Under the pieces are notes generated by a model, which worked only from the letters and a program-made list of their open reading frames with translations, was not told where the DNA came from and did no database searches. The position numbers and the translations under genes were made by a program. Of a stretch of DNA of 64,000 nt, positions 2,702 to 50,230 are shown in pieces (positions within the stretch are counted from its first letter, which is position 1; each line of letters begins with the position of its first letter). This DNA is from Crossaster papposus (Eukaryota; Echinodermata; Asteroidea; Velatida; Solasteridae): positions 2,232,001 through 2,296,000 of the forward strand of contig JBAIAA010000531.1 in NCBI GenBank assembly GCA_037893245.1. The letters run 5' to 3'.

Positions 2702-3104
2702 GGGTAGCCTGCAAAAAGGCGTGGCCCGGTGGATGATACCGTGTTGTGATTGGTCATCGTATTGTCCAATTGGTGCTCGGATGCGGTAGTGCGGAAAACA
2801 GAGCCTGGGTTGTGGACTTATGTTGTGGTTTTGGGCTAAAAGTGTGTTTGTTTGAAAAAGCCATTATTTCTATTTTCCTATTTTGGAAAATAGTTAATTT
2901 TTTCTTCTATCTTTTGATAGTTGTTTAAGAAAAAAATATAACATCTAACCGTGTGCGGTGATGGAAAGAGATGTTTTTTTTGGTGTTTGAAAAATAAACA
3001 TATGGTCAAACCGTGTGCGGTATTTGGACAGATATGTTTTGGTCGTGAATATTGACGTCAATATTCACGATCTGCGTAGTCCCTTCAGGGCCACCATAGA
3101 AATG

Positions 3105-4397: not shown

Positions 4398-4785
4398 AAT
4401 AAGCCATTTGCGCGTGACCCCGAGTTAAATTTGAATAACATCTGGTACACTGACTTTCTCACACAGCTTGGCACAGTTTAACTTTAAATTCTCCAGTCCA
4501 AAGACGCTGTTGCTATATCACGTGATTCGGGGCAAGCCTTACGCTAGCAACCCCCAGCTCTTGAATGGTCTGGTGTCTTTTTGCCAATCTCACCCATTGT
4601 AAACAATGTATTGGTGCTGAGCGTCTCTTACGTAACTATGCACAAGCTTGCCCCGAATCACGTGATATAGCAACAGTGTCTTTGGTCTGGAGAATTTAAA
4701 GTTAAACTGTGCCAAGCTGTGTGAACAAGTCAGTGTACCAGATATTATTTAAATTTAACTCGGGGTCACGCGCAAATGGCTTATT
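4398..4785. mobile_element. 388-bp foldback (hairpin) element
   Basis: The arm starting AATAAGCCATTTGCGCGTGA at 4398 and running to about 4540 is repeated in inverted orientation from about 4646 to 4785, with only small differences. The loop is about 105 bp. No coding capacity is seen apart from a short open frame caused by the left arm. Long near-perfect arms and a short unique centre are typical of foldback elements or MITEs. I could not define a target duplication. Confidence 0.75.
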
Positions 4786-15356: not shown

Positions 15357-18300
15357 AGTCAGTCAGTCAGTCAGTCAGTCAGTCAGTCAGTCAGTCAGTC
15401 AGTCAGTCAGTCAGTCAGTCAGTCAGTCAGTCAGTCAGTCAGTCAGTCAGTCAGTCAGTCAGTCAGTCAGTCAGTCAGTCAGTCAGTCAGTCAGTCAGTC
15501 AGTCAGTCAGTCAGTCAGTCAGTCAGTCAGTCAGTCAGTCAGTCAGTCAGTCAGTCAGTCAGTCAGTCAGTCAGTCAGTCAGTCAGTCAGTCAGTCAGTC
15601 AGTCAGTCAGTCAGTCAGTCAGTCAGTCAGTCAGTCAGTCAGTCAGTCAGTCAGTCAGTCAGTCAGTCAGTCAGTCAGTCAGTCAGTCAGTCAGTCAGTC
15701 AGTCAGTCAGTCAGTCAGTCAGTCAGTCAGTCAGTCAGTCAGTCAGTCAGTCAGTCAGTCAGTCAGTCAGTCAGTCAGTCAGTCAGTCAGTCAGTCAGTC
15801 AGTCAGTCAGTCAGTCAGTCAGTCAGTCAGTCAGTCAGTCAGTCAGTCAGTCAGTCAGTCAGTCAGTCAGTCAGTCAGTCAGTCAGTCAGTCAGTCAGTC
15901 AGTCAGTCAGTCAGTCAGTCAGTCAGTCAGTCAGTCAGTCAGTCAGTCAGTCAGTCAGTCAGTCAGTCAGTCAGTCAGTCAGTCAGTCAGTCAGTCAGTC
16001 AGTCAGTCAGTCAGTCAGTCAGTCAGTCAGTCAGTCAGTCAGTCAGTCAGTCAGTCAGTCAGTCAGTCAGTCAGTCAGTCAGTCAGTCAGTCAGTCAGTC
16101 AGTCAGTCAGTCAGTCAGTCAGTCAGTCAGTCAGTCAGTCAGTCAGTCAGTCAGTCAGTCAGTCAGTCAGTCAGTCAGTCAGTCAGTCAGTCAGTCAGTC
16201 AGTCAGTCAGTCAGTCAGTCAGTCAGTCAGTCAGTCAGTCAGTCAGTCAGTCAGTCAGTCAGTCAGTCAGTCAGTCAGTCAGTCAGTCAGTCAGTCAGTC
16301 AGTCAGTCAGTCAGTCAGTCAGTCAGTCAGTCAGTCAGTCAGTCAGTCAGTCAGTCAGTCAGTCAGTCAGTCAGTCAGTCAGTCAGTCAGTCAGTCAGTC
16401 AGTCAGTCAGTCAGTCAGTCAGTCAGTCAGTCAGTCAGTCAGTCAGTCAGTCAGTCAGTCAGTCAGTCAGTCAGTCAGTCAGTCAGTCAGTCAGTCAGTC
16501 AGTCAGTCAGTCAGTCAGTCAGTCAGTCAGTCAGTCAGTCAGTCAGTCAGTCAGTCAGTCAGTCAGTCAGTCAGTCAGTCAGTCAGTCAGTCAGTCAGTC
16601 AGTCAGTCAGTCAGTCAGTCAGTCAGTCAGTCAGTCAGTCAGTCAGTCAGTCAGTCAGTCAGTCAGTCAGTCAGTCAGTCAGTCAGTCAGTCAGTCAGTC
16701 AGTCAGTCAGTCAGTCAGTCAGTCAGTCAGTCAGTCAGTCAGTCAGTCAGTCAGTCAGTCAGTCAGTCAGTCAGTCAGTCAGTCAGTCAGTCAGTCAGTC
16801 AGTCAGTCAGTCAGTCAGTCAGTCAGTCAGTCAGTCAGTCAGTCAGTCAGTCAGTCAGTCAGTCAGTCAGTCAGTCAGTCAGTCAGTCAGTCAGTCAGTC
16901 AGTCAGTCAGTCAGTCAGTCAGTCAGTCAGTCAGTCAGTCAGTCAGTCAGTCAGTCAGTCAGTCAGTCAGTCAGTCAGTCAGTCAGTCAGTCAGTCAGTC
17001 AGTCAGTCAGTCAGTCAGTCAGTCAGTCAGTCAGTCAGTCAGTCAGTCAGTCAGTCAGTCAGTCAGTCAGTCAGTCAGTCAGTCAGTCAGTCAGTCAGTC
17101 AGTCAGTCAGTCAGTCAGTCAGTCAGTCAGTCAGTCAGTCAGTCAGTCAGTCAGTCAGTCAGTCAGTCAGTCAGTCAGTCAGTCAGTCAGTCAGTCAGTC
17201 AGTCAGTCAGTCAGTCAGTCAGTCAGTCAGTCAGTCAGTCAGTCAGTCAGTCAGTCAGTCAGTCAGTCAGTCAGTCAGTCAGTCAGTCAGTCAGTCAGTC
17301 AGTCAGTCAGTCAGTCAGTCAGTCAGTCAGTCAGTCAGTCAGTCAGTCAGTCAGTCAGTCAGTCAGTCAGTCAGTCAGTCAGTCAGTCAGTCAGTCAGTC
17401 AGTCAGTCAGTCAGTCAGTCAGTCAGTCAGTCAGTCAGTCAGTCAGTCAGTCAGTCAGTCAGTCAGTCAGTCAGTCAGTCAGTCAGTCAGTCAGTCAGTC
17501 AGTCAGTCAGTCAGTCAGTCAGTCAGTCAGTCAGTCAGTCAGTCAGTCAGTCAGTCAGTCAGTCAGTCAGTCAGTCAGTCAGTCAGTCAGTCAGTCAGTC
17601 AGTCAGTCAGTCAGTCAGTCAGTCAGTCAGTCAGTCAGTCAGTCAGTCAGTCAGTCAGTCAGTCAGTCAGTCAGTCAGTCAGTCAGTCAGTCAGTCAGTC
17701 AGTCAGTCAGTCAGTCAGTCAGTCAGTCAGTCAGTCAGTCAGTCAGTCAGTCAGTCAGTCAGTCAGTCAGTCAGTCAGTCAGTCAGTCAGTCAGTCAGTC
17801 AGTCAGTCAGTCAGTCAGTCAGTCAGTCAGTCAGTCAGTCAGTCAGTCAGTCAGTCAGTCAGTCAGTCAGTCAGTCAGTCAGTCAGTCAGTCAGTCAGTC
17901 AGTCAGTCAGTCAGTCAGTCAGTCAGTCAGTCAGTCAGTCAGTCAGTCAGTCAGTCAGTCAGTCAGTCAGTCAGTCAGTCAGTCAGTCAGTCAGTCAGTC
18001 AGTCAGTCAGTCAGTCAGTCAGTCAGTCAGTCAGTCAGTCAGTCAGTCAGTCAGTCAGTCAGTCAGTCAGTCAGTCAGTCAGTCAGTCAGTCAGTCAGTC
18101 AGTCAGTCAGTCAGTCAGTCAGTCAGTCAGTCAGTCAGTCAGTCAGTCAGTCAGTCAGTCAGTCAGTCAGTCAGTCAGTCAGTCAGTCAGTCAGTCAGTC
18201 AGTCAGTCAGTCAGTCAGTCAGTCAGTCAGTCAGTCAGTCAGTCAGTCAGTCAGTCAGTCAGTCAGTCAGTCAGTCAGTCAGTCAGTCAGTCAGTCAGTC

Positions 18301-21300
18301 AGTCAGTCAGTCAGTCAGTCAGTCAGTCAGTCAGTCAGTCAGTCAGTCAGTCAGTCAGTCAGTCAGTCAGTCAGTCAGTCAGTCAGTCAGTCAGTCAGTC
18401 AGTCAGTCAGTCAGTCAGTCAGTCAGTCAGTCAGTCAGTCAGTCAGTCAGTCAGTCAGTCAGTCAGTCAGTCAGTCAGTCAGTCAGTCAGTCAGTCAGTC
18501 AGTCAGTCAGTCAGTCAGTCAGTCAGTCAGTCAGTCAGTCAGTCAGTCAGTCAGTCAGTCAGTCAGTCAGTCAGTCAGTCAGTCAGTCAGTCAGTCAGTC
18601 AGTCAGTCAGTCAGTCAGTCAGTCAGTCAGTCAGTCAGTCAGTCAGTCAGTCAGTCAGTCAGTCAGTCAGTCAGTCAGTCAGTCAGTCAGTCAGTCAGTC
18701 AGTCAGTCAGTCAGTCAGTCAGTCAGTCAGTCAGTCAGTCAGTCAGTCAGTCAGTCAGTCAGTCAGTCAGTCAGTCAGTCAGTCAGTCAGTCAGTCAGTC
18801 AGTCAGTCAGTCAGTCAGTCAGTCAGTCAGTCAGTCAGTCAGTCAGTCAGTCAGTCAGTCAGTCAGTCAGTCAGTCAGTCAGTCAGTCAGTCAGTCAGTC
18901 AGTCAGTCAGTCAGTCAGTCAGTCAGTCAGTCAGTCAGTCAGTCAGTCAGTCAGTCAGTCAGTCAGTCAGTCAGTCAGTCAGTCAGTCAGTCAGTCAGTC
19001 AGTCAGTCAGTCAGTCAGTCAGTCAGTCAGTCAGTCAGTCAGTCAGTCAGTCAGTCAGTCAGTCAGTCAGTCAGTCAGTCAGTCAGTCAGTCAGTCAGTC
19101 AGTCAGTCAGTCAGTCAGTCAGTCAGTCAGTCAGTCAGTCAGTCAGTCAGTCAGTCAGTCAGTCAGTCAGTCAGTCAGTCAGTCGTCAGTCAGTCAGTCA
19201 GTCAGTCAGTCAGTCAGTCAGTCAGTCAGTCAGTCAGTCAGTCAGTCAGTCAGTCAGTCAGTCAGTCAGTCAGTCAGTCAGTCAGTCAGTCAGTCAGTCA
19301 GTCAGTCAGTCAGTCAGTCAGTCAGTCAGTCAGTCAGTCAGTCAGTCAGTCAGTCAGTCAGTCAGTCAGTCAGTCAGTCAGTCAGTCAGTCAGTCAGTCA
19401 GTCAGTCAGTCAGTCAGTCAGTCAGTCAGTCAGTCAGTCAGTCAGTCAGTCAGTCAGTCAGTCAGTCAGTCAGTCAGTCAGTCAGTCAGTCAGTCAGTCA
19501 GTCAGTCAGTCAGTCAGTCAGTCAGTCAGTCAGTCAGTCAGTCAGTCAGTCAGTCAGTCAGTCAGTCAGTCAGTCAGTCAGTCAGTCAGTCAGTCAGTCA
19601 GTCAGTCAGTCAGTCAGTCAGTCAGTCAGTCAGTCAGTCAGTCAGTCAGTCAGTCAGTCAGTCAGTCAGTCAGTCAGTCAGTCAGTCAGTCAGTCAGTCA
19701 GTCAGTCAGTCAGTCAGTCAGTCAGTCAGTCAGTCAGTCAGTCAGTCAGTCAGTCAGTCAGTCAGTCAGTCAGTCAGTCAGTCAGTCAGTCAGTCAGTCA
19801 GTCAGTCAGTCAGTCAGTCAGTCAGTCAGTCAGTCAGTCAGTCAGTCAGTCAGTCAGTCAGTCAGTCAGTCAGTCAGTCAGTCAGTCAGTCAGTCAGTCA
19901 GTCAGTCAGTCAGTCAGTCAGTCAGTCAGTCAGTCAGTCAGTCAGTCAGTCAGTCAGTCAGTCAGTCAGTCAGTCAGTCAGTCAGTCAGTCAGTCAGTCA
20001 GTCAGTCAGTCAGTCAGTCAGTCAGTCAGTCAGTCAGTCAGTCAGTCAGTCAGTCAGTCAGTCAGTCAGTCAGTCAGTCAGTCAGTCAGTCAGTCAGTCA
20101 GTCAGTCAGTCAGTCAGTCAGTCAGTCAGTCAGTCAGTCAGTCAGTCAGTCAGTCAGTCAGTCAGTCAGTCAGTCAGTCAGTCAGTCAGTCAGTCAGTCA
20201 GTCAGTCAGTCAGTCAGTCAGTCAGTCAGTCAGTCAGTCAGTCAGTCAGTCAGTCAGTCAGTCAGTCAGTCAGTCAGTCAGTCAGTCAGTCAGTCAGTCA
20301 GTCAGTCAGTCAGTCAGTCAGTCAGTCAGTCAGTCAGTCAGTCAGTCAGTCAGTCAGTCAGTCAGTCAGTCAGTCAGTCAGTCAGTCAGTCAGTCAGTCA
20401 GTCAGTCAGTCAGTCAGTCAGTCAGTCAGTCAGTCAGTCAGTCAGTCAGTCAGTCAGTCAGTCAGTCAGTCAGTCAGTCAGTCAGTCAGTCAGTCAGTCA
20501 GTCAGTCAGTCAGTCAGTCAGTCAGTCAGTCAGTCAGTCAGTCAGTCAGTCAGTCAGTCAGTCAGTCAGTCAGTCAGTCAGTCAGTCAGTCAGTCAGTCA
20601 GTCAGTCAGTCAGTCAGTCAGTCAGTCAGTCAGTCAGTCAGTCAGTCAGTCAGTCAGTCAGTCAGTCAGTCAGTCAGTCAGTCAGTCAGTCAGTCAGTCA
20701 GTCAGTCAGTCAGTCAGTCAGTCAGTCAGTCAGTCAGTCAGTCAGTCAGTCAGTCAGTCAGTCAGTCAGTCAGTCAGTCAGTCAGTCAGTCAGTCAGTCA
20801 GTCAGTCAGTCAGTCAGTCAGTCAGTCAGTCAGTCAGTCAGTCAGTCAGTCAGTCAGTCAGTCAGTCAGTCAGTCAGTCAGTCAGTCAGTCAGTCAGTCA
20901 GTCAGTCAGTCAGTCAGTCAGTCAGTCAGTCAGTCAGTCAGTCAGTCAGTCAGTCAGTCAGTCAGTCAGTCAGTCAGTCAGTCAGTCAGTCAGTCAGTCA
21001 GTCAGTCAGTCAGTCAGTCAGTCAGTCAGTCAGTCAGTCAGTCAGTCAGTCAGTCAGTCAGTCAGTCAGTCAGTCAGTCAGTCAGTCAGTCAGTCAGTCA
21101 GTCAGTCAGTCAGTCAGTCAGTCAGTCAGTCAGTCAGTCAGTCAGTCAGTCAGTCAGTCAGTCAGTCAGTCAGTCAGTCAGTCAGTCAGTCAGTCAGTCA
21201 GTCAGTCAGTCAGTCAGTCAGTCAGTCAGTCAGTCAGTCAGTCAGTCAGTCAGTCAGTCAGTCAGTCAGTCAGTCAGTCAGTCAGTCAGTCAGTCAGTCA

Positions 21301-23768
21301 GTCAGTCAGTCAGTCAGTCAGTCAGTCAGTCAGTCAGTCAGTCAGTCAGTCAGTCAGTCAGTCAGTCAGTCAGTCAGTCAGTCAGTCAGTCAGTCAGTCA
21401 GTCAGTCAGTCAGTCAGTCAGTCAGTCAGTCAGTCAGTCAGTCAGTCAGTCAGTCAGTCAGTCAGTCAGTCAGTCAGTCAGTCAGTCAGTCAGTCAGTCA
21501 GTCAGTCAGTCAGTCAGTCAGTCAGTCAGTCAGTCAGTCAGTCAGTCAGTCAGTCAGTCAGTCAGTCAGTCAGTCAGTCAGTCAGTCAGTCAGTCAGTCA
21601 GTCAGTCAGTCAGTCAGTCAGTCAGTCAGTCAGTCAGTCAGTCAGTCAGTCAGTCAGTCAGTCAGTCAGTCAGTCAGTCAGTCAGTCAGTCAGTCAGTCA
21701 GTCAGTCAGTCAGTCAGTCAGTCAGTCAGTCAGTCAGTCAGTCAGTCAGTCAGTCAGTCAGTCAGTCAGTCAGTCAGTCAGTCAGTCAGTCAGTCAGTCA
21801 GTCAGTCAGTCAGTCAGTCAGTCAGTCAGTCAGTCAGTCAGTCAGTCAGTCAGTCAGTCAGTCAGTCAGTCAGTCAGTCAGTCAGTCAGTCAGTCAGTCA
21901 GTCAGTCAGTCAGTCAGTCAGTCAGTCAGTCAGTCAGTCAGTCAGTCAGTCAGTCAGTCAGTCAGTCAGTCAGTCAGTCAGTCAGTCAGTCAGTCAGTCA
22001 GTCAGTCAGTCAGTCAGTCAGTCAGTCAGTCAGTCAGTCAGTCAGTCAGTCAGTCAGTCAGTCAGTCAGTCAGTCAGTCAGTCAGTCAGTCAGTCAGTCA
22101 GTCAGTCAGTCAGTCAGTCAGTCAGTCAGTCAGTCAGTCAGTCAGTCAGTCAGTCAGTCAGTCAGTCAGTCAGTCAGTCAGTCAGTCAGTCAGTCAGTCA
22201 GTCAGTCAGTCAGTCAGTCAGTCAGTCAGTCAGTCAGTCAGTCAGTCAGTCAGTCAGTCAGTCAGTCAGTCAGTCAGTCAGTCAGTCAGTCAGTCAGTCA
22301 GTCAGTCAGTCAGTCAGTCAGTCAGTCAGTCAGTCAGTCAGTCAGTCAGTCAGTCAGTCAGTCAGTCAGTCAGTCAGTCAGTCAGTCAGTCAGTCAGTCA
22401 GTCAGTCAGTCAGTCAGTCAGTCAGTCAGTCAGTCAGTCAGTCAGTCAGTCAGTCAGTCAGTCAGTCAGTCAGTCAGTCAGTCAGTCAGTCAGTCAGTCA
22501 GTCAGTCAGTCAGTCAGTCAGTCAGTCAGTCAGTCAGTCAGTCAGTCAGTCAGTCAGTCAGTCAGTCAGTCAGTCAGTCAGTCAGTCAGTCAGTCAGTCA
22601 GTCAGTCAGTCAGTCAGTCAGTCAGTCAGTCAGTCAGTCAGTCAGTCAGTCAGTCAGTCAGTCAGTCAGTCAGTCAGTCAGTCAGTCAGTCAGTCAGTCA
22701 GTCAGTCAGTCAGTCAGTCAGTCAGTCAGTCAGTCAGTCAGTCAGTCAGTCAGTCAGTCAGTCAGTCAGTCAGTCAGTCAGTCAGTCAGTCAGTCAGTCA
22801 GTCAGTCAGTCAGTCAGTCAGTCAGTCAGTCAGTCAGTCAGTCAGTCAGTCAGTCAGTCAGTCAGTCAGTCAGTCAGTCAGTCAGTCAGTCAGTCAGTCA
22901 GTCAGTCAGTCAGTCAGTCAGTCAGTCAGTCAGTCAGTCAGTCAGTCAGTCAGTCAGTCAGTCAGTCAGTCAGTCAGTCAGTCAGTCAGTCAGTCAGTCA
23001 GTCAGTCAGTCAGTCAGTCAGTCAGTCAGTCAGTCAGTCAGTCAGTCAGTCAGTCAGTCAGTCAGTCAGTCAGTCAGTCAGTCAGTCAGTCAGTCAGTCA
23101 GTCAGTCAGTCAGTCAGTCAGTCAGTCAGTCAGTCAGTCAGTCAGTCAGTCAGTCAGTCAGTCAGTCAGTCAGTCAGTCAGTCAGTCAGTCAGTCAGTCA
23201 GTCAGTCAGTCAGTCAGTCAGTCAGTCAGTCAGTCAGTCAGTCAGTCAGTCAGTCAGTCAGTCAGTCAGTCAGTCAGTCAGTCAGTCAGTCAGTCAGTCA
23301 GTCAGTCAGTCAGTCAGTCAGTCAGTCAGTCAGTCAGTCAGTCAGTCAGTCAGTCAGTCAGTCAGTCAGTCAGTCAGTCAGTCAGTCAGTCAGTCAGTCA
23401 GTCAGTCAGTCAGTCAGTCAGTCAGTCAGTCAGTCAGTCAGTCAGTCAGTCAGTCAGTCAGTCAGTCAGTCAGTCAGTCAGTCAGTCAGTCAGTCAGTCA
23501 GTCAGTCAGTCAGTCAGTCAGTCAGTCAGTCAGTCAGTCAGTCAGTCAGTCAGTCAGTCAGTCAGTCAGTCAGTCAGTCAGTCAGTCAGTCAGTCAGTCA
23601 GTCAGTCAGTCAGTCAGTCAGTCAGTCAGTCAGTCAGTCAGTCAGTCAGTCAGTCAGTCAGTCAGTCAGTCAGTCAGTCAGTCAGTCAGTCAGTCAGTCA
23701 GTCAGTCAGTCAGTCAGTCAGTCAGTCAGTCAGTCAGTCAGTCAGTCAGTCAGTCAGTCAGTCAGTCA
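15357..23768. repeat. Satellite zone A: near-perfect (AGTC)n
   Basis: About 2,100 units. The only irregularity I see is one missing A between 19184 and 19185; 957 exact units precede it and about 1,145 follow. Such homogeneity implies very recent expansion or strong homogenisation, unless assembly polishing produced it. Confidence 0.95.
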
Positions 23769-24490
23769 CTCAGTCACTCAGTCAGTCACTCAGTCACTCA
23801 GTCAGTCACTCAGTCAGTCACTCAGTCAGTCACTCAGTCACTCAGTCAGTCACTCAGTCACTCAGTCAGTCAGTCACTCAGTCACTCAGTCAGTCACTCA
23901 GTCACTCAGTCACTCAGTCACTCAGTCACTCAGTCACTCAGTCACTCAGTCACTCAGTCACTCAGTCACTCAGTCACTCAGTCACTCAGTCACTCAGTCA
24001 CTCAGTCACTCAGTCACTCAGTCACTCAGTCACTCAGTCACTCAGTCACTCAGTCACTCAGTCACTCAGTCACTCAGTCACTCAGTCACTCAGTCACTCA
24101 GTCACTCAGTCACTCAGTCACTCAGTCACTCAGTCACTCAGTCACTCAGTCACTCAGTCACTCAGTCACTCAGTCACTCAGTCACTCAGTCACTCAGTCA
24201 CTCAGTCACTCAGTCACTCAGTCACTCAGTCACTCAGTCACTCAGTCACTCAGTCACTCAGTCACTCAGTCACTCAGTCACTCAGTCACTCAGTCACTCA
24301 GTCACTCAGTCACTCAGTCACTCAGTCACTCAGTCACTCAGTCACTCAGTCACTCAGTCACTCAGTCACTCAGTCACTCAGTCACTCAGTCACTCAGTCA
24401 CTCAGTCACTCGGTCACTCAGCTCACTCAGTCACTCAGCTCACTCAGTCACTCAGTCACTCAGCTCACTCAGCTCACTCACTCAGTCACT
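23769..24490. repeat. Satellite zone B: alternating 8-mer (ACTCAGTC)n
   Basis: At the left, AGTC and ACTC units are mixed irregularly (23769-23890). They then settle into a strict alternation forming an 8-bp higher-order repeat, about 65 copies to roughly 24410. The last 80 bp are irregular, with GCTCACTC insertions. Confidence 0.9.
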
Positions 24491-27400
24491 CACAGTCACT
24501 CAGTCACTCAGTCACTCACTCACTCACTCACTCACTCATCACTCACTCACTCACTCACTCACTCACTCACTCACTCACTCACTCACTCACTCACTCACTC
24601 ACTCACTCACTCACTCACTCACTCACTCACTCACTCACTCTCACTCACTCACTCACTCACTCACTCACTCACTCACTCACTCACTCACTCACTCACTCAC
24701 TCACTCACTCACTCACTCACTCACTCACTCACTCACTCTCACTCACTCACTACTCACTCACTCACTCTCACTCACTCACTCACTCACTCACTCACTCACT
24801 CACTCACTCACTCACTCACTCACTCACTCACTCACTCACTCACTCACTCACTCACTCACTCACTCACTCACTCACTCACTCACTCACTCACTCACTCACT
24901 CACTCACTCACTCACTCACTCACTCTCACTCACTCACTCACTCACTCACTCACTCACTCACACTCACTCACTCACTCACTCACCTCACTCACTCACTCAC
25001 TCACTCACTCACTCACTCACTCACTCACTCACTCACTCACTCACTCACTCACTCACTCACACACTCACTCACTCACTCACTCACTCACTCACTCACTCAC
25101 TCATCACTCTCACTCACTCACTCACTCACTCACTCACTCACTCACTCACTCACTCACTCACTCACTCACTCACTCACTCACTCACTCACTCACTCACTCA
25201 CTCACTCACTCACTCACTCACTCACTCACTCACACTCACTCACTCACTCACTCACTCACTCACTCACTCACTCACTCACTCACTCACTCACTCACTCACT
25301 CACTCACTCACTCACTCACTCACTCACTCACACTCACTCACTCTCACTCACTCACTCACTCACTCACTCACTCACTCACTCACTCACTCACTCACTCACT
25401 CACTCACTCACTCACTCACTCACTCACTCACTTCACTACCTCACTCACTCACTCACTCACTCACTCACTCACTCACTCACTCACTCACTCACTCACTCAC
25501 TCACTCACATCACTCACTCACTCACTCACTCACTCACTCACTCACTCACTCACTCACTCACTCACTCACTCACTCACTCACTCACTCACTCACTCACTCA
25601 CTCACTCACTCACTCACTCACTCACTCACTCACTTCACTCACTCACTCACTCACTCACTCACTCACACTCACTCACTCACTCACTCACTCACTCACTCAC
25701 TCACTCACTCACTCACTCACTCACTCACTCACTCACTCACTCACTCACTCACTCACTCACTCTCACTCACTCACTCACTCACTCACTCATCACTCACTCA
25801 CTCACTCACTCACTACTCACTCACTCACTCACTCACTCACTCACTCACTCACTCACTCACTCACTCACTCACTCACTCACCACTCACTCACTCACTCACT
25901 CACTCACTCACTCACTCACTCACTCACTCACTCACTCACTCACTCACTCACTCACTCACTCACTCACTCACTCACTCACTCACTCACTCACTCACTCACT
26001 CACTCACTCATCACTCACTCACTCACTCACTCACTCACTCACTCACTCACTCCTCACTCACTCACTCACTCACTCACTCACTCACTCACTCACTCACTCA
26101 CTCACTCACTCACTCACTCACTCACTCACTCACTCACTCACTCACTCACTCACTCACTCACTCACTCACTCACTCACTCACTCACTCACTCACTCACTCA
26201 CTCACTCACTCACTCACTCACTCACTCACTCACTCACTCACTCACTCACTCACTCACTCACTCACTCACTCACTCACTCACTCACTCACTCACTCACTCA
26301 CTCACTCACTCACTCACTCACTCACTCACTCACTCACTCACTCACTCACCTCACTCACTCACTCACTCACTCACTCACTCACTCACTCACTCACTCACTC
26401 ACTCACTCACTCACTCACTCACTCACTCACTCACTCACTCACTCACTCACTCACTCACTCACTCACTCACTCACTCACTCACTCACTCACTCACTCACTC
26501 ACTCACTCACTCACTCACTCACTCACTCACTCACTCACTCACTCACTCACTCACTCACTCACTCACTCACTCACTCACTCATCACTCACTCACTCACTCA
26601 CTCACTCACTCACTCACTCACTCATCACTCACTCACTCACTCACTCACTCACTCACTCACTCACTCACTCACTCACTCACTCACTCACTCACTCACTCAC
26701 TCACTCACTCACTCACTCACTCACTCACTCACTCACTCACTCACTCACTCACTCACTCACTCACTCACTCACTCACTCACTCACTCACTCACTCACTCAC
26801 TCACACTCACTCACTCACTCACTCACTCACTCACTCACTCACTCTCACTCACTCACTCACTCACTCACTCACTCACTCACTCACTCACTCACTCACTCAC
26901 TCACTCACTCACTCACTCACTCACTCACTCACTCACTCACTCACTCACTCACTCACTCACTCACTCACTCACTCACTCACTCACTCACTCACTCACTCAC
27001 TCACTCACTCACTCACTCACTCACTCACTCACTCACTCACTCACTCACTCACTCACTCACTCACTCATCACTCACTCACTCACTCACTCACTCACTCACT
27101 CACTCACTCACTCACTCACTCACTCACTCACTCACTCACTCATCCACTCACTCACTCACTCACTCACTCACTCACTCACTCACTCACTCACTCACTCACT
27201 CACTCACTCACTCACTCACTCACTCACTCACTCACTCACTCACTCACTCACTCACTCACTCACTCACTCACTCACTCACTCACTCACTCACTCACTCACT
27301 CACTCACTCACTCACTCACTCACTCACTCACTCACTCACTCACTCACTCACTCACTCACTCACTCACTCACTCACTCACTCACTCACTCACTCACTCACT

Positions 27401-27876
27401 CACTCACTCACTCACTCACTCACTCACTCACTCACTCACTCACTCACTCACTCACTCACTCACTCACTCACTCACTCACTCACTCACTCACTCACTCACT
27501 CACTCACTCACTCACTCACTCACTCACTCACTCACTCACTCACTCACTCACTCACTCACTCACTCACTCACTCACTCACTCACTCACTCACTCACTCACT
27601 CACTCACTCACTCACTCACTCACTCACTCACTCACTCACTCACTCACTCACTCACTCACTCACTCACTCACTCACTCACTCACTCACTCACTCACTCACT
27701 CACTCACTCACTCACTCACTCACTCACTCACTCACTCACTCACTCACTCACTCACTCACTCACTCACTCACTCACTCACTCACTCACTCACTCACTCACT
27801 CACTCACTCACTCACTCACTCACTCACTCACTCACTCACTCACTCACTCACTCACTCACTCACTCACTCACTCACT
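24491..27876. repeat. Satellite zone C: (CACT)n with many indels
   Basis: About 850 units. From 24490 to about 27145 there are dozens of one- to three-base interruptions (such as CTCTCACT, CATCACTC and CACACTC). The final 730 bp next to exon 2 are clean. This zone is clearly more degenerate than zone A. Confidence 0.92.
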
Positions 27877-32576: not shown

Positions 32577-33291
32577 CTTCAAAAAGGTGACCCCTAGATG
32601 ACCTTTGACCTCGTACGCCCTAGCGAATGCAAACTGGTTCTTGCGGGGACCGAGCCGGACCCACCCACCGAGTTTGAACGCCGCACGACCCCGGGAAGGG
32701 GACGAAAAAGCGCGCACAGATTCAAAAAGGTGACCCCTAGATGACCTTTGACCTCGTACGCTCTAGCGAATGCAAACTGGTTCTTGCGGGGACCGAGCCG
32801 GACCCACCCACCGAGTTTGAACGCCGCACGACCCCGGGAAGGGGACGAAAAAGCGCGCACAGATTCAAAAAGGTGACCCCTAGATGACCTTTGACCTCGC
32901 ACGCTCTAGCGAATGCAAACTGGTTCTTGCGGGGACCGAGCCGGACCCACCCACCGAGTCTGAACGCCGCACGACCCCGGGAAGGGGACGAAAAAGCGCG
33001 CACAGATTCAAAAAGGTGACCCCTAGATGACCTTTGACCTCGTACGCTCTAGCGAATGCAAACTGGTTCTTGCGGGGACCGAGCCGGACCCACCCACCGA
33101 GTTTGAACGCCGCACGACCCCGGGAAGGGGACGAAAAAGCGCGCACAGATTAAAAAAGGTGACCCCTAGATGACCTTTGACCTCGCACGCTCTAGCGAAT
33201 GCAAACTGGTTCTTGCGGGGACCGAGCCGGACCCACCCACCGAGTTTGAACGCCGCACGACCCCGGGAAGGGGACGAAAAAGCGCGCACAG
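32577..33291. repeat. 143-bp minisatellite, five copies, each with a DR1 element
   Basis: Five tandem GC-rich units of exactly 143 bp, nearly identical, start at about 32577, 32720, 32863, 33006 and 33149. Differences are a few point changes (CGTACG/CGCACG, GTTTGAA/GTCTGAA). A diverged partial unit precedes the array (about 32550-32576). Each unit includes TGACCTTTGACCT. The repeated minus-strand open frames over the array are by-products of the period. A GACA-rich microsatellite follows at 33286-33318. Confidence 0.95.
32599..33183 (-). promoter_or_regulatory. Five perfect DR1 nuclear-receptor elements
   Basis: The minus strand reads AGGTCAAAGGTCA at 32599-32611, 32742-32754, 32885-32897, 33028-33040 and 33171-33183: two AGGTCA half-sites with a one-base spacer, the consensus for RXR/HNF4/COUP-type receptors. 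A third half-site (GGGTCA) follows six bases later in every unit. The match is direct; regulatory use is inference. The intact GPCR gene ends about 960 bp upstream. Confidence 0.6.
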
Positions 33292-33329
33292 ACAGACAGA
33301 CACACAGACAGACAGAGAGTAGCGTATTA

Positions 33330-40816: not shown

Positions 40817-42072
40817 ATGGAGACCAACGAACCTACGGACCGCATACTACATGCATTCCAGGTCACCACGAACGAGATTCAGCGGACATTCAGAGACTCA
40901 TGTGCTTTACTGAGAGCTGAAATGCTCGGCAGCAAAAGAAAGTCGATGCGAGCCATGAACGACAAAATAAAGACTTCTACATCGACCATGTGGAAAAGAA
41001 AAGGAAATCAAAAACAGTTTGAATTCAACCGTGATGTCCTCGAACTCATTGTCAAGGCGTCCGAGGCGTGAAAGTCGGGAGACTTCTCGGCAGTAAGCAC
41101 GCATATCGACGCAGCGATCCTAAAGATGCCAACCAGGCGAAAGCTCATCCGCCTGGCAGACTCCAGCAAAGGGGGGGGGGGGGGGGGGGGCAGACCGTTC
41201 CAGAGTACGAGACGAACGACTACTCCGAGGACAACAACAGAATCAACAGGGCAGAGGCAAGAGCCGTACGTCCGCAAGATGAAAAAGACGAAATCAGCCA
41301 GGAGAAGCAGCCGTTTTTGTCCATACAACAGTTCCTTTGTGTCATACAATCTGCACCTTCGTGGGATACTGATATAACGTTATCAGAAGAGTCCAAACAT
41401 GAATTAAAATTCTGGGGTTCAAACTTATCCAATTTGAAACCAGTCCCAATGAAAAAATAATGTCATGTATCAAAAGGCTGTATGTTCAGATGCCAGCAAT
41501 GCTTTCGGGGCAGGATACGTAGTTGGTGTAAACAAAGCAGTTGCACATGGGACTATAATGATGTATGATGGGACTATATGCAGTATGATGAAAAGTCTAA
41601 GAGTAGTACTTGGAAAGAACTAGGAGCTGTTCGCATAGTCTAAGACAGTTTTGCAACTATATTGACCGGAAACAATGTAAAATGGTTCACAGAGAGTCAG
41701 AATGTCGCAAACATTGTTGAAAATGGTAGCGGAAAACCAGTTCTTCAGAGAATTACAAGGTCTATTTACTCAACATGCGTAAAACATGGTATTGGCCTAA
41801 ATATTGAATGGATTCCACGCTCGCAAAATTAAAAAGCTGATGTTTTGAGTCACATTGTAAATTACGATGATTGGGCAATTTCAGATGCAATTTTTAGCAA
41901 AATTGACATACTATGGGGGCCCCACTCCATAGACAGATTTGCCAATTACAAAAACAACAGCACTGCTCGTTTGAATTCCAGAATCTGGAACCCGAATTAT
42001 GTAAACATCGACGCATTTACCCAAAATTGGTCAGGCGAAAACAAATGGCTAATTCCACCAATTTTTCTTATA
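40817..42072 (+). pseudogene. DIRS-type retrotransposon, gag-like ORF fused to RT/RNase H remnant
   Basis: The 5' part (40817-41320) encodes a gag-like protein resembling those of DIRS/YR retroelements. Visible blocks are KRKGNQKQFEFNRDVLELI, then RRKLIRLADSSK, then EYETNDYSEDN and a basic tail. A frame change occurs near 41070, and a G20 tract (41171-41190) interrupts the coding sequence just after ADSSK. From about 41340 the sequence jumps to the region between RT and RNase H (PSWDTDITLSEESKHELKFW). It then gives RNase H-like and trailing segments with several stops, ending WGPHSIDRFANYKNN and ENKWLIPP near 42060. The RT palm is deleted, and the tyrosine recombinase expected downstream is not seen. 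The sequence is cut at 42072 by the Tc1 element. Confidence 0.65.
41171..41190 (+). repeat. G20 homopolymer
   Basis: Exactly 20 G, inside the DIRS gag-like frame, adding a run of glycine codons and disturbing the frame. Confidence 0.8.
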
Positions 42073-43292
42073 AACACCTCAACAAAAGTAAGTCCCCCTC
42101 TTAACAGTTCGTCATAACATCGTCAGGTAAAACATTTTACCAATCAAACTTAGTTAAAAATAATCCTATGACTGTTTCCTAAATGTTGTTGGAAAATAAA
42201 AGATGTCCATAACTTCATGGCTGAATGAGCTCGAATGAATGAACAAAACTGCCCTTCTCAAAAGTCACAAAAGTTGATCAAATCTCCAGGTCAGTATCGC
42301 GTGTATCCACCACGCCTGTTAATGACCGCCTGGTCTTCGACCACCCAACCGCCAGAGAGTTTCGACGCAGACGATTACAAGGTGCTTGCACAATGCTGGA
42401 CTTTGTGCCCGACGTCGAGTGAACTAAGAAAGCCACCCTGGAACTACGACACAGACAAGCGCGTATGTTATGGGCCACAGCTCGTGTTCGATGGACCAGA
42501 CAGCAGTGGAGCAATGGGTTGTTCACGGTGAAATGAGAAGTTGTCTGCGTCACATTGATGGCCGGATACGTGTGTGGCGTCGAGTTGGAGAGCAACATGC
42601 CGAGTGCTGTGTTCAGCCAGTTACAGCCTATGGTGGCGGTAGTGTAATGGTGTGGGGTGGTATTAGCCTTACCAGGAAAACACCACTTGTGCAGATTGCT
42701 GGCAACCTGACAGCTCAACGATATGTTGACGAAGTGCTGCGTCCACATGTGTCACCACTTGCTGCAGCCCACGGTGGAGCATTTGTTTACATGGACGACA
42801 ATGCCCCACCACACAAAGGGAGAGTAGCTACTGCATACTTGGCTGGTGAAGTCATCAATCGAATGGTGTGGCCGGCATGCTCGCCTGACCAGCTGAAGCG
42901 ATCTGTATATCCTCACATCAACGCCAACAGCAACCTGGCTCACCTATCCCATCTTCTGCAGGTTCAGTGGAATGCCATTACACAGCAGCGTGTCGCCAGC
43001 TTGATCAACACCATGAGAAGACGGTGCCAGGCGGTCATTAACAGGCGTGGTGGATACACGCGATACTGACCTGAAGATTTGATCAACCGTCCTTTTGTGA
43101 CTTTTAAGAAGGGCAGTTTTGTTCATTCATTTGAGCTCATTCAGCCATGAAGTTATGGACATCTTTTATTTTCCAACAACATTTAGGAAACAGTCATAGG
43201 ATTAATTTTAACTAAGTTTGATTGGTAAAATGTTTTACCTGACGATTTTATGACGAACTGTTGAGAGGGGGACTTACTTTTGTTGAGGTGTT
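42073..43292. mobile_element. Tc1-type transposon with about 260-bp inverted repeats
   Basis: The left end, AACACCTCAACAAAAGTAAG at 42073, is matched by the inverted right end finishing at 43292, and TA flanks both ends (42071-42072 and 43293-43294). The inverted match extends about 260 bp inward, to the 3' end of the transposase gene (GGCGTGGTGGATACACGCGA on the right), which is unusually long for Tc1. Differences between the arms are few, so the insertion is fairly young even though the gene is dead. Confidence 0.85.
42286..43069 (+). pseudogene. Tc1-like transposase, catalytic residues lost
   Basis: The best-preserved part, 42540-43069, reads LRHIDGRIRVWRRVGE, YGGGSVMVWGGIS and FVYMDDNAPPHKGRVATAYL, clear Tc1/mariner DDE_3 blocks. 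The second catalytic Asp is kept in YMDDNAPPH. The third acidic residue should follow SPD, but the sequence goes SPDQLKRSVY, so a short deletion removed the Glu/Asp region. The first catalytic block, expected before LRHIDGR, is destroyed by a frame change and stop at about 42530. The N-terminal helix-turn-helix half is only partly recognisable, in other frames. Not functional. Confidence 0.8.
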
Positions 43293-43299
43293 TAGTGCA

Positions 43300-43450
43300 G
43301 CAGATATGTGCAAAGATTGTGGGTTTGATGATAAAAGCATAGAATTTGGCTCACAATTAGAACATGCCACAAGAAAGATTTTTGGATATAGGGACATTGC
43401 ATATTCACCCTGGGTCCAAAATGGCGGCCATTTTTCAAAATGGCCGTGAT
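43300..43450 (+). repeat. Dispersed repeat R1, copy 1 (direct)
   Basis: This matches the reverse complement of 49640-49840: AGATATGTG, TTGTGGGTTTGATGATAAAA, TTTTTGGATATAGGGACAT and AAAATGGC-GCC. It sits between the Tc1 insertion and the gene on the minus strand. Confidence 0.75.
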
Positions 43451-43459
43451 CGGGTATTA

Positions 43460-44009
43460 CATAACACATAATCTGTAGGAGTTTCGCACGTTTTCCAACT
43501 GGAGATGCATGTAAGTGATGCAATATCACTTAACAAATAATATGGGATGCCAGTGAAAGGTCGTACACCTTACATAACCGATTTTGTTTACCTATTAGGC
43601 AACAATTACGCAAAATTTGTGTTTTTTTATGAGTTTTGTCTGTATTTTGCAATCTGAAAATGATCGGTTCAACATTAAACTGCACTGCCACTGTGGAAGT
43701 ACGTTTACCCTTACATATGATCTTACATTTATCTTTTACCCTTACATTGTCAATGGGTACATCATATTAAAATATAACAATCCGCCATGCGGACAAAGGC
43801 GATCAAGGTTAGCAAACCGAGCATCAAACGTACATTAATGCCAACCAACTGTTTACACATGTACGTTATGTAGTTAGATCTTATTAGCTAACGAAATATG
43901 TTTAACTTGGGTGTTAAATCATGGTGGTAGATGGGACCAGCTATCCCCAATTTAACTATAGAAAGTGGTTATGTTTGTGTTCCCTAAGCCGTCCATGATA
44001 CTGCAAGTT
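43460..44009. other. Spacer downstream of the minus-strand gene
   Basis: I see no gene. A clear minus-strand AATAAA signal for the neighbouring gene was not found here. Confidence 0.4.
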
Positions 44010-47000
44010 CTACTCATGAACACACTGTCCGTCGCAGTGGCATAGTGCCGTGCACTGGAGTACAGCCTTCATACACTTGCATTGTCCTCTGCATCCCTTC
44101 TTGCAGCCGCATCTGAGAAGTTGCCGGCATGCTTGCGTTGCCTCCGCGAGGGTTGTCCAGTAGATGTCCCAGCCAGTGTCACTCTTCACCCACCCCCATT
44201 CGCTAGGGGATGGGAGCTCTGTAGCAGCAACCATCATCTGGCCCCAACAGTAGCCAGCTTGGTAGGCAGTTCTCCTGATGTGCTGTCTGAGGGCTTCTCG
44301 AGTTGGTGGGAGAGCATCTATTGCTCGACCTTTCTGGGTGAAGAGCTGCTTACGTGCATCATTGACATGCTCGTGGCTGCTAGTGCGATCATACAGGAGA
44401 ACGACGAAACGCTCCAAGGTGTCCAGGCTGTCATCTACGATTGAGGGGTTTGGTGTAGCGCCCAAGTGACAGAAGGTCGCAGTGATCTCATCACAGGCCT
44501 TCCACGTCTCCCATGCAGTCTTTTTGCTCCTGCCTCTAAAGCTTGACACCGTATCACACCCAGTGAAGGCATGAAATGAGGGTAATCCTCGACACTTGTC
44601 AGGCCCCAATGCCTGGGCTATTTCGTGAGCTGCTAAGAACCTAAAGTTCTTCCCGGTACCGAAGGCAACCCACAGCTCAGCTATGTTGAGGCGTTCGGCT
44701 GCTGCCACCGCAAGGACTACGACATCCGTGTCAACTGTGCGGATTGACACCTTGGTGTAGCCCTGCTTCACAGCATCTCCCACGTGGAACAGCATCCTGG
44801 TATCTGCTTCTTCATGTGTACATGGAGCAAGACCAGCGATGTCTCTGGCATGCGTACAGACCACGTCTTTGTGGAGAGTGCTGATGACTTGTTTGTCTGT
44901 CTCTTGAGCAGCTAGTCTTGTCGCTAGGAAGGAGAACAGCTCCACCTTGTTCTCGTCGATCCGTAGGAAGGCCTGCCAGTTTCCTGGTATGGAACTAGAT
45001 GGCTCGACTCGTCTCCAGATGCCTCTACCTCTCTTTATTCGAGTGTCGGACTTCAAACTGTCTGGCAGGTATTCATCCCAGACGACATCCACTCTGATTG
45101 CATGCTGTAGCTGAGATGTGATATACGGCAAGAAAACCTGTGTTGCATAGTCAGAGAAGGTCTTCGCACCACCAGGTGCCAGCATGTTGGTGATCGCTGC
45201 TCCATCAAGGATGATGACTTCAACATGAGGGCTGGCAACATTCTCTTGTGGCGGGATCATATCTTCTAAGCATCCCACGAGCTGAGACTTTTTTCCCAGT
45301 CTCATTTTGCCCATCTGTGACAGGGCAGGGGGGCAGGCCTGGTTCTCATGAGCAAAGAAATCGTCGAGATCTCCATCACGCATCTGGGATGCAATGAACA
45401 ACCGGGAGAATAGGGAGCAGTCATTCTTGAGCGACGACAGCTGAAGCTGGGTTCTTGATCTCTTTCTGATTGGAGATCGGCTAAAGAGAGGAAGGTTGTT
45501 TCTTCTGATTGGGTCGGTGATGGGCTTCGTCTGGTTCACAAGCCGCTCATTAACATACGTGTGGTACTGCTCCTTCCCCAGCTTCTCGATCTGGCGCACA
45601 GTGTTGATGACTGCTGGTTCTGCCAGGTATCTGCTGTCTAGTACCAGGAGATCGTTGTTGTCATCACAGAAGGGGTTCCCCATCTCTCTTATTACACCGG
45701 AAAGTGACTTCACATCTCGAGCAAATGCCAACTGTGTATACTTTGTCTGCTCGTGGTGCCTGGAATCAGTCTTCTTTGTTCTCGTCTCTGCTGTGGCTTG
45801 GAACTCTGCAATCACTCTTGCCATCTCAGGACCGGACACCATCCAGCGCCGCAATGCTGCAGGATTCTCAGTCAGGCCGACTGCTCCGCCATCACCTTTC
45901 ACTGATGCGTTATTTTGCTCATGTGCCTGGTCGATGGCCAAAGCAGAGAATGCATGTGTTGTCTTCTTCACTGTGAAGTTCCCAGCCATGAACTCTGCGA
46001 ACACATCTGGATGCTTGTCTTCGAGTGCTACCATGTCACGCAAGTGAACTGGAATCCACCTTGCGTAATTTGTGTGTCCCAGGGCAAAGAACCAGGGTAC
46101 AATCTTGGTCAAGGCATCGATGTAGAGCATGAAGTCGCCCTCGCGTAGCGATCTCACGTAGATCATGATTTCCAGTTCCAGCTGCAGGATAATCGACCAG
46201 AACTTGAACTGGGGACTTGTATCAGCTCGGCTAGCACACCAGTCTTCTACTGACATTGGAACCTGTCCCTCATCTAACCCGACACAGTATTGGGTGTAAC
46301 CCTCTTGTCGAAGGAGATACAGAACACTAGCTGTGACCTGGTGAGCCCATCGAGTGCGCGTCACATGGGCGGCTTTGATGAAGGAGTCGGCTGTTCCAGG
46401 TGTAGCAACTCCTGCCTGGACCCGGGCTTCCGTCCATCCACTGCAATCCAGAAGGTCGCCCAGGGTGTTGAATGATGCCTTTTCGATGTGAAATCCGGCA
46501 AACAGGATAATGAAGTAATCTTCTCCATGTGTTTGAGGCCAGCTCCATTGGATCTGTTTGGCCAGCGTGTACAGTGGTTGATCCGCGGTGATGACTGGGA
46601 CCTGACCAGGATTCAGGATATCCACTGCCCTCTTGATGACGTCCATGGAGTGGCGAATCATGGCCACGGAGTTGGCCTGATCATAGAAGAGGGGCAGCAA
46701 TGAGGTAATGGCCACACTGCTTGGATCCACTGGTGCTGATTGCTCGCTGGCGTGGTATGCAGCCCATGACACGGCCTCGTCTCCAGTGAGCGGTGTGTCT
46801 GCAGTCACCATCTTCCCCATCTGACCCAGCCACCTGTTGAATGAGACAAATGAAACAAGACAGTAAACACGACAGTGGTGGTTAGTTGGTGCAGACACAC
46901 ATTGCTGCTGTCATTGTCCGAACATCAAATAAAGCCAGTCCAGAATATGCAGTAATACCATTCCGTATTTACCTGTACTCAGTCTTCACTGCTTGAGGTA

Positions 47001-48725
47001 TTAGGCGGCATTCACTTCTGTTGGGACCCGCCAACTTTGGAATAGGTGGGTCACGTTTCCTCAGGAGCACGGAAGGCACGCTGGTGTATGATTCTGGCAG
47101 GTGGGCAACTGTTGTCGCAGTTGTTGCAGTGTTGTCTGTGTCCACAATCCGTTGAACTCCAGGGACGTCACTATTCGGGTGTTGGAACAAAGAGATTCCT
47201 GTACCATGGAACGAGTCCTGAGCACTTGTCGAGCTAGGGTTGTGGTCTATGTTGTCGACTGCTCCAGTGGTGAACAAGCCACCCTTCAGTATGGGGGGCA
47301 AACGGCTCCCTCCAACAGGAAGTAGCGACATATGTTGTTCCCCAACTCAGAAGAAATGCTCAGCACCCTGTCGTAGGCGATAGACAGACCAAGGCGGTAC
47401 AGCTCATCAACGAGGTCTCGTCTTCGTGTCTTTGTGTGCATCATCACACCCAGGTACACAGGTACAGGTGTCTCTCTGTTGTGACTGTGCTTGGTAGATT
47501 GTACAGAACCGGTGCTCTTGCGACGGCGTGCACAGCTGTTAAACATCAGGAGCTGGGTGATTGTAAGTGTAGGAGCTGGTACAGATGAGTGGCTTGACTG
47601 TTCATGGATATTGGGGCCATTCAAGATCATAGAAACCAGTGCGATGAGTGAATTTGGCACCGACTCTTCCTGGCAGTGGGTGTCAAATGAACCACTGAAT
47701 GCAGTCGTCATCTTCAGCATGTCTCTTCGGACTATGTTGGCAGCTCTAGCCAGATGAATGCCATCACTGTCGGCATCCTGCTCACATACCTTGCGCAGGG
47801 CTGCTCCAACATCCTGGTTGAAAGCAAGTAGAATGTCTCGGCCTCGCTTGTGCTCCTCTAAGTCAGGAAAATACCTCAAAATTCTATTTTTTAGTTCGGT
47901 TGAGTGAACACGCCCAGTCAGGACTGTTCCAAGCTGCTCCAGCCTGGTGTTGTACAGGGTTGCCAGGTCTATGAGCTTGAACACTGGCGCCACATCAGAG
48001 TCCATACGGGCTTCCTCAATGTAGGACACCAGTTCAGCAAGGGCTATGCCGTGATTTACATCGTCTTGGTCTGGACCCTCATTTATCTTCGTGCCTCTGG
48101 CTTTGTTGTACAGGGAGGCTAGACACTTCACATGGTACTTGGCCTCTTGTGCTATAAGATCCCCTCCACTTAGTTTAGCCAACAGTGGTTTGTCCTCTAG
48201 TTTGAGGGCACATTTCCTGACACGGGCATCAAGCTCAAAGGTGGAAGCCTCGTGCAGAGTCTCCTTACCCGCCAGTCTGTCACAAAAGAAACACTTCTCA
48301 ACTGAAGGTTGTGGTTGGTTCACACTCTGACGGGTGTACTTCCTTGGGACATCTGCACTGTGCTCATAGGAGGTTTTCCTCTTCTCAGCTCGAAACAGTT
48401 AGGTTTTGTTGTATTCGAGTCTACATGAATCGTGCCACCTGGCTCTGTGGTGCTCGAATGTGGCTTGAATGCCCTCACCATCATCCAGTTTGGAGAGATC
48501 TATAGTCTTTGGCAGACATCCGATCTTGCTGAAGGCGAGGAGATTGTCTGCAAGAGTCTGGTACCCAGAACCACCGGTGCTACGCTTTGATTCAGCTGGA
48601 CAACATAGCTTCGCAGAGGTGTCTTTCTGACATAGCACACACTGGTCCCAATCTGTCAGAAATGGAAGATGTGCACCAGATGAGTCTGGCTGTTGGGGGT
48701 CCAACACCATAAAACGTTTGGCCAT
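44010..48725 (-). CDS. Tandem C2HC zinc-finger / FEN-XPG-like nuclease / CXC protein, two breaks
   Basis: This is a large gene of unknown function, roughly 1,525 codons in two exons (48725-46973 and 46833-44010). Its parts in order are zinc finger 1 (CVLC ... WHDSC, exon start), zinc finger 2 (CFFC ... YHVKC), and a conserved middle (YLGVMMHTKTRRRDLVDEL, then DNIDHNPSS and FHGTGISLFQHP). Exon 2 has VPVITADQPLYTLAKQ, then a nuclease-like part: IILDGAA (about 45215), VVWDEYLPDSLKSDTRIKRG, CTHEEADTRML (about 44810), TVDTDVVVLA (about 44720) and HAFTGCDTVSSFRGRSKKTAW (about 44550). These acidic blocks match the order and spacing of FEN1/XPG N and I regions. The C-terminus is a CXC cluster (CGCKKGC, CKC, CHC). 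Breaks are an in-frame TAA at 48399-48401 and a one-base loss in a six-C run at 47293-47298. It could be a host family or the gene of an unrecognised mobile element. The nuclease call is by motif only. Confidence 0.7.
46834..46972 (-). other. 139-bp intron of the zinc-finger/nuclease gene
   Basis: The donor CAG|GTAAAT (GT at 46972-46971) and acceptor TTCAACAG (ending 46834) join EYR to WLGQMGK without disturbing the frame. The intron is short and AT-rich, with a pyrimidine-rich 3' end. Confidence 0.8.
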
Positions 48726-49031
48726 TGTCAGTCAGTCAGAATATATTTAGAGTACAGCCATCGTGACCTGAAAGCAGAATCAGCAGAATTAAGATATGCA
48801 CATCTCAGCTCTAGTACATATGTAGCAAGACAGATCTGTCAGATATGATAAGCATGACAAGGAAGAAAAACGTTGTTTGCGTCCCTGTTAGGCCACCATA
48901 CATAATTGTGTTTAAGTCCACGGGAGGCCTATGCATAACATGTCAATAACAAATGATACATAGATCCACAAGAATGTGTTTTGCACTAACCATAGTTGAT
49001 ATAATAAACACATAATGGAATGGCAATGAGG

Positions 49032-49180
49032 TCACTAGTCATATCTATGAACCCCGAGGTACTGTAAGTGACCACATGAGGGCCATATTTTCCGAGGCCG
49101 AAGGCCGAGGGAAATGTGACCTTTATGTGGTCATTCACAGTCTCTCGGTGTGCATAGATGCGACTATAGTCGACTAGTGA
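49032..49180. mobile_element. Foldback MITE, about 150 bp
   Basis: Arms of about 70 bp starting ACTAGTC pair with one another around a GGCCGAAGGCC centre (for example GTGACCACAT against ATGTGGTCAT). RNA or DNA from it would fold into a long hairpin. Confidence 0.65.
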
Positions 49181-49510
49181 CCGAATTATGCCAGTACATA
49201 TGAGTTTCATAACACACCACCCACGGTCCAAAAAATACCATGAGAAAAGAGATATTTACTTGCGTACAGCTCGCCGTTTAGAATTATTCACGGATTATTT
49301 AATTATATCCTTGGTACATGAAGAGTCTTTCTTGAGGATCAATTGTGCAATTTCCTCGGTTTAATAATAGTGTAAATCCAGATTTGTTGACCTGATCCGT
49401 ACCGTCGGTGTTAGAAGCCGCCATTTGTCTTACTTTCATGACAACACTTGAGTAGTCTTGACAACTTCTTGAGGGCGCTGTAAACTGTCAAACATTAACG
49501 ACAAGTATCA

Positions 49511-49534
49511 CACTATGGACCGGTCCATAGTGTC
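49511..49534. repeat. 24-bp perfect palindrome
   Basis: ACACTATGGACC followed by its exact inverse GGTCCATAGTGT. A second, imperfect relative (GTGCACCGGTCCATAGTGG) follows at about 49548. No function is evident. Confidence 0.8.
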
Positions 49535-49639
49535 ACGGAACCACTGTGCACCGGTCCATAGTGGTAAAATTTGCACTGGCTATGCAATAGGCTATACTAG
49601 TGAACCACACATGATAATGGTTTAGCCATTCGGGGAGAA

Positions 49640-49840
49640 GAATCAACACAAGGTGTGTTAAAATTCAACTTATAGGCAAAAATTGTAAATTGTGGTTGCC
49701 ATTTTGTAAAATGGCCGCCACAGCGACCATAGGACGAATATGCGATGTCCCTATATCCAAAAATATTCCTAAGGGTATGTCCCAACTGTGTGCCAAATGC
49801 CATGCTTTTATCATCAAACCCACAATTCGGTCAAAAAATT
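49640..49840 (-). repeat. Dispersed repeat R1, copy 2 (inverted)
   Basis: This is the inverted partner of 43300-43450, so the zinc-finger/nuclease gene lies between two R1 copies in opposite orientation. It abuts the gag-like fragment at 49850. Confidence 0.75.
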
Positions 49841-49849
49841 TCACATATC

Positions 49850-50230
49850 TTTATCAATGACTTTAGCCAGTTTTTCATTGACTGCAGCAGCAGTTGGGGC
49901 ATCCTCTGTATATAGCTGTTCAAAATGTTCAACAACTGGTCATCCTGGCATGTAGGGTTTGAACCTGTGACTGACTCCGAGAGCAGTTCGTTTATAGTCT
50001 TTGAGGCGCTTGCATCTGAGTCAGATTCTGAGGCCAGACAAGGCCGCTTTGCGGCAGGTTGGCTGAGGATGGCCGTTTGGATGGTCTTAATGGCTTCTGC
50101 CATTGTGTCCCGCTTTTCTGTCACGGCGGCAAATTCTTGCCGAGTAACAGCCTTGTTTTTACGAGACTTTTCTTTTGGCTTAGCCGAATCATCTTGATAC
50201 TCACCCGTATCCTGTCAGGTGTCCGACAGA
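49850..50230 (-). pseudogene. DIRS gag-like fragment
   Basis: Minus-strand frames give MAGPSDSVRHLTGY near 50240, then AKRPCLASESDSDASASK and DDQLLNILNS, and in another frame NEKLAKVIDKDM near 49870. The Ser/Asp-rich linker followed by a hydrophobic segment and a short repeat of LA-(x)-V resembles the N-terminal ORF of DIRS-type elements. At least two frame changes and several stops are present. The family call is tentative. Confidence 0.4.

Follow-up and report, generated by a model that had tools for sequence, protein, structure and literature searches.

The gene encoded on the minus strand at positions 44010-48725 of the analyzed window (the whole stretch of 64,000 nucleotides from the genome of the sea star Crossaster papposus) lies inside a transposon. 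With a probability of about 83%, the window element is a decayed autonomous cut-and-paste transposon that belongs to the Academ superfamily and, within it, to AcademX, a placement made by published description and not by sequence. It constitutes a new family of an already described transposon kind.

The first-pass annotation had described a large protein with two C2HC fingers, a FEN1/XPG-like nuclease and a CXC cluster. Its span proved to be exactly one gene, from ATG (48723-48725) to stop (44010-44012), and all listed motifs were found in the given order (CxxC-WHxSC, CxxC-YHxxC, ILDGAA, WDEYLPDSLK..KRG, EEADTR, DTDVVVLA, TGCDT...RGRSKKTAW and CGC/CKC/CHC); what it left out was that this copy is broken, that an intron is predicted and that a transposon encloses the gene. 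In the window copy, the predicted exon 1 (46973-48725, minus strand, ends read from the sequence) is interrupted twice, by an in-frame TAA at 48399-48401 and, near 47.3 kb, by a frameshift. It is followed by a predicted GT-AG intron of 139 bp (46834-46972, minus strand, also read from the sequence) and by the predicted exon 2 (44010-46833, minus strand), which is open in the window copy. In three other copies (L009, L010 and L011) exon 1 is an unbroken single frame of 587 codons, counted from stop to stop. In L009 and L010, exon 2 forms an open frame of 969 codons, and in L011 a stop interrupts it; the two exons occupy separate open frames in the window and in all three copies. The spliced product would comprise about 1525 residues, a length taken from L009. 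Along the minus strand, two C2HC pairs, CVLC ... WHDSC (48423-48641) and CFFC ... YHVKC (48123-48293), both conserved in L033 and L028, precede a putative transposase core (45918-47256), a putative FEN/XPG-like nuclease region (44232-45224) and a CXC-like cysteine cluster (44022-44111).

The transposon itself measures 6.56 kb (43293-49850, gene on the minus strand). Its left terminus, TAGTGCAGCAGATATGTG, is intact, and its terminal inverted repeats occupy 43293-43444 (plus strand, about 150 bp) and 49698-49850 (minus strand), the latter having lost its outer 9 bp in the window copy. The sequence TAGTGCAGCAGATATGTG is read inward at both element ends; other subfamilies have the ends TAGTGCTGC or TAGTACTGC and TAGTGGGGC or TAGTCCGGC, and the terminal motif of the family is TAGTVSDGCRGA, with exceptions. 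L009, L010 and L011 aligned with window positions 43293-49850 at 98.5-98.7% identity over their longest aligned pieces, and the similarity ended at common boundaries; L009 and L010, in which both exons are open, are located at different sites. At the DNA level, the genome (1.02 Gb, 1841 contigs) gave at least 41 matches (40 of 127 candidates scored), four of them, the window included, at 99-100%, and a protein search gave at least 109 (100 of 2299 candidates scored), both numbers being lower bounds on family copy number that cover the scored candidates. These matches bore out the earlier proposal of a multicopy family. The family was recently mobile in the C. papposus genome, with many copies, some of them recent.

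A neighboring element of Tc1/mariner type (42073-43292, type assigned by eye, no strand given) is not part of this transposon; it has terminal repeats of about 200 bp with 98% identity and is inserted exactly at the left-terminal TA of the Academ element. Elsewhere, the window contains a 12.5-kb near-perfect tetranucleotide array (15357-27874), consisting of (AGTC)n to about 23.4 kb, then a mixed portion and then (ACTC)n, as well as a 143-bp tandem repeat present in five copies (32578-33292).

Target site duplications of 2-11 bp were scored in 30 fetched regions, and both ends were paired by script in 18 of these. L013/L014 and L029/L030/L031, which have common flanks, were each counted once. 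L018 was left out because of its altered left end (the script read no duplication, inspection by eye suggested TTA), and L028, whose second end was missed by the script, was not counted (TAT was suggested by eye). In the 14 independent loci that resulted, all of them testable at both ends, the duplication was 3 bp long in ten (L009, L010, L013, L020, L022, L024, L029, L032, L034 and L038), 4 bp in one (L021) and 2 bp in one (L012), and two had none (L011 and L035). L021 sits in a tandem repeat, and its duplication is read as 4 bp because the adjoining units carry a single TATA. Moreover, of four insertions for which paralogous empty sites were sought, two had them. The joined flanks of L010 minus one TTT aligned over 260/260 bases, and at up to 99% identity, to a dispersed repeat, and those of L038 minus one 3-bp copy aligned without interruption over 260/260 bases at 11 places (91-98%). 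No empty site was found for L009 among at least 79 matches (40 of 1991 candidates scored), where, its own right flank aside, the left flank alone was matched. The joined-flank search of the genome likewise found none for the window copy, whose apparent TTA duplication is unproven because its two flanks belong to different repeats. These flanks, at 41500-42070 and 49831-50214, differ in the repeat that they match; by eye, they look like pieces of a retroelement of DIRS/Ngaro type. The exact shared termini, the 3-bp target duplications and the empty sites uphold the earlier suggestion that the protein is the enzyme of a mobile element, for which defined ends and target duplications had been named as the features to look for.

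The window frame gave DUF6589 as its sole Pfam match (E 2.8e-4, 20.1 bits versus a cut-off of 27), at residues 249-377 of the 966-aa frame. This match was seen in 4 of 13 aligned rows and was absent from L030 and L033; no XPG, PIN, DDE or CXC match was obtained by Pfam in the frames scanned, and NCBIfam returned chance-level matches only. The aligned rows, which are not independent (four come from one subfamily and two from L034), share 47-67% identity with the window frame, except for L009 (98%). Three candidate acids of a D/D/E transposase are conserved on the minus strand: the D at 47254-47256 in AVDNID of exon 1 (motif kept in the four rows, out of five, that reach it), the D at 46581-46583 in ITADQPLY (4/4 rows with letters there) and the E at 45918-45920 in DQAHEQNN (8/8 rows, the D of this motif in 8/9). 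In the nuclease-like block, the acids checked were invariant in 10/10 or 11/11 rows with letters; those of the region are D 45204-45206, D 45075-45077, the two E at 44808-44813, D 44730-44732, D 44724-44726 and D 44553-44555, all on the minus strand. Comparison of L030 with L033, the least saturated pair between families, gave dN 0.130 and dS 0.950 for the transposase part (dN/dS about 0.14), dN 0.154 and dS 1.407 for the nuclease (about 0.11) and dN 0.173 and dS 1.591 for the CXC tail (about 0.11). Other between-family pairs were near or past synonymous saturation (dS 1.6 to infinite), and within-family pairs had few changes, with a transposase column that for some included non-homologous flanking codons. 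The motifs are thus more than chance, and the protein is under constraint.

One possibility raised in the first-pass annotation was a mobile element working without a DDE transposase. This was not supported, since a separate conserved region with weak similarity to DUF6589 and with D/D/E candidates lies upstream of the nuclease-like block; the element is probably not DDE-less because of this weak match and these conserved candidates, even though the DDE Pfam models gave no match. The link suggests that DUF6589 may itself be an Academ-like transposase core. In this genome, DUF6589 had at least 112 matches (102 of 334 candidates scored), many with equal score.

The region downstream resembles the 5' nucleases of the FEN1, XPG and bacterial polA type in the order and rough spacing of the motifs hhhD, hh[FWY]D..K..R, EAD, D.D and G.D..GxxKKA, but has GCDT in place of GTDY. 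A signature of this motif order, composed after the query was seen and therefore not independent of it, matched nine of the 13 family rows; the other four do not extend across the region. Among the controls it matched 37 of 47 archaeal FEN1 proteins, polA, none of 5000 shuffles and one of 92 long E. coli frames, with the opening residues of the polA start; it missed ygdG and the other 10 archaeal FEN1 proteins. The hhalign comparison with an archaeal FEN1 profile (47 of 53 fetched loci, after a length filter on L039-L089) gave a score of 16.1, a probability of 0.2% and an E value of 0.32, which, given the thin profile (Neff 1.6), is weak evidence of absence. Of 150 column shuffles, 69 scored as high, and reversed FEN1 scored higher (17.2); the best alignment nonetheless pairs the four downstream motifs. 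The AlphaFold single-sequence model (mean pLDDT 35.4) was uninformative on a PIN/FEN fold. A sequence search of the PDB gave no match, a viral-contig search gave 57 pattern matches of which none was a relative, and a phage sequence search found nothing. XPG_I_2 (PF12813) had 12 matches in the same genome, none at the places of the family among the matches listed. The proposed FEN/XPG-like identity is consistent with the motif order and is unproven: the order held up, and significant profile similarity was not obtained. That the protein acts on DNA, as was proposed at first, is probably right. The cysteine cluster differs from Tesmin/TSO1 CXC domains in that it has no Pfam CXC match; the spacing of its nine cysteines is, we presume, near the Tesmin/TSO1 consensus.

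The X of AcademX stands for XPG; the primary paper on this lineage is reportedly that of Kojima from 2020, and Academ transposases are said to be the subject of work by Yuan and Wessler from 2011. Academ is placed in print among the DDD/E superfamilies. According to an excerpt of PMC10045372, target duplications of 3-4 bp in AcademX and of 9-10 bp in AcademH go with a nuclease and a helicase, respectively. The excerpt of PMC10294476 describes an amplification of Academ in bivalves, with a mean length of 5565 bp and 100 curated consensus elements, a mean that the 6.56-kb element resembles. The placement in AcademX was made because the nuclease-like region, present besides the putative transposase, and the 3-4-bp duplications, seen in 11 of the 14 independent loci (ten of 3 bp, one of 4 bp), fit this published lineage; terminal inverted repeats are a further likeness by description. 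In the same comparison, which is by description only, the TAGTVSDGCRGA terminal motif, with its exceptions, and the CXC tail are features of the present family. AcademH belongs to the same superfamily and has a possible connection to DUF6589, but it has a helicase and 9-10-bp duplications, neither of which was seen in the present family; it was ruled out by duplication length and by the lack of a helicase Pfam match in the exon 1 and exon 2 frames. A non-exhaustive literature search returned nothing on DUF6589 nor on Academ, XPG and transposon in combination, and the excerpts of PMC10799480 and PMC8290104 added nothing on AcademX. The motif combination, for which no published name had been recognized at first, thus probably has one, AcademX, as far as the excerpt of PMC10045372 describes it.

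Three other readings were weighed against the AcademX placement. The similarity to DUF6589 is weak, DUF6589 has its own multicopy set of at least 112 matches, and the fit to AcademX was established by description; all this would also suit a distinct undescribed superfamily, in which 3-bp duplications and an AcademX-like nuclease arose by convergence and whose upstream domain would group with DUF6589 proteins and not with the transposases of Academ. The length of the duplications, the terminal repeats, the size of the element and the nuclease-like region all match the AcademX and Academ descriptions in the excerpts, however, and we consider a separate superfamily improbable. It is still less probable, and to be given little credence, that the nuclease-like block is itself the transposition enzyme and works without a D/D/E domain. 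Strong conservation of the block, and its retention in long open frames of palindromic derivatives, speak for this, but the upstream region is comparably constrained (in L030 versus L033) and has the conserved D/D/E candidates, and Academ is classed in print as DDD/E.

The constraint on the protein would be expected of a host gene as well, for example a multicopy defense factor that simply happens to be located among repeats. Such a gene is contradicted by the exact common termini, the 3-bp duplications, the deletion derivatives, the empty sites and the two near-identical open-exon copies at different sites; the defense factor first considered was rejected on the defined termini, target duplications and empty sites, and a host gene of any kind is hardly conceivable. 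The AcademX-type transposon is thus the preferred reading.

A related subfamily, with about 69% DNA identity, was represented by nine fetched loci (L017-L025) that contain two inverted left halves relative to the longer L028 (for example L018, positions 2422-7434). L023 and L025, which have a left flank in common at 95%, were counted once. There were six distinct junctions (L017; L018; L019 and L023/L025; L020 and L021; L022; L024) with 0-2 bp of microhomology by direct reading. Two of these junctions each occur at two sites with unrelated flanks (L019 versus L023/L025, and L020 versus L021), and L020, L021, L022 and L024 have 3- or 4-bp target duplications. Because junctions recur at unrelated flanks and such duplications are present, two left ends seem to be sufficient for movement. 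Foldback elements such as Tetris and Galileo are already known, and the palindromic derivatives are unusual for their recurrence and not for their kind. A role of the element's own nuclease as their cause is speculation; that its nuclease or transposase reaction repeatedly joins broken left halves head to head by 0-2 bp of microhomology, giving products that transpose themselves, seems to us rather unlikely.

In the mechanism that we propose for the AcademX-type element, the C2HC fingers, the CXC cluster or both would bind the terminal repeats, an RNase-H-like D/D/E domain would cut and join the element ends, and the C-terminal FEN/XPG-like nuclease would process flaps or branched ends, with insertion duplicating 3, sometimes 4, target bases. 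We infer all these enzymatic roles and how they are divided, together with the nuclease fold and the assignment of the D/D/E residues, from sequence features, and hold the individual roles with less confidence than the AcademX type.

Large "uncharacterized" proteins with C2HC fingers, an ILDG/EEADTR/DTDVVVLA/TGCDT block and a CXC tail, which are easily mistaken for host nucleases, thereby receive a probable name. Furthermore, the recurrent palindromic derivatives offer a sequence-level handle on how a transposase may use a fused flap-type nuclease.
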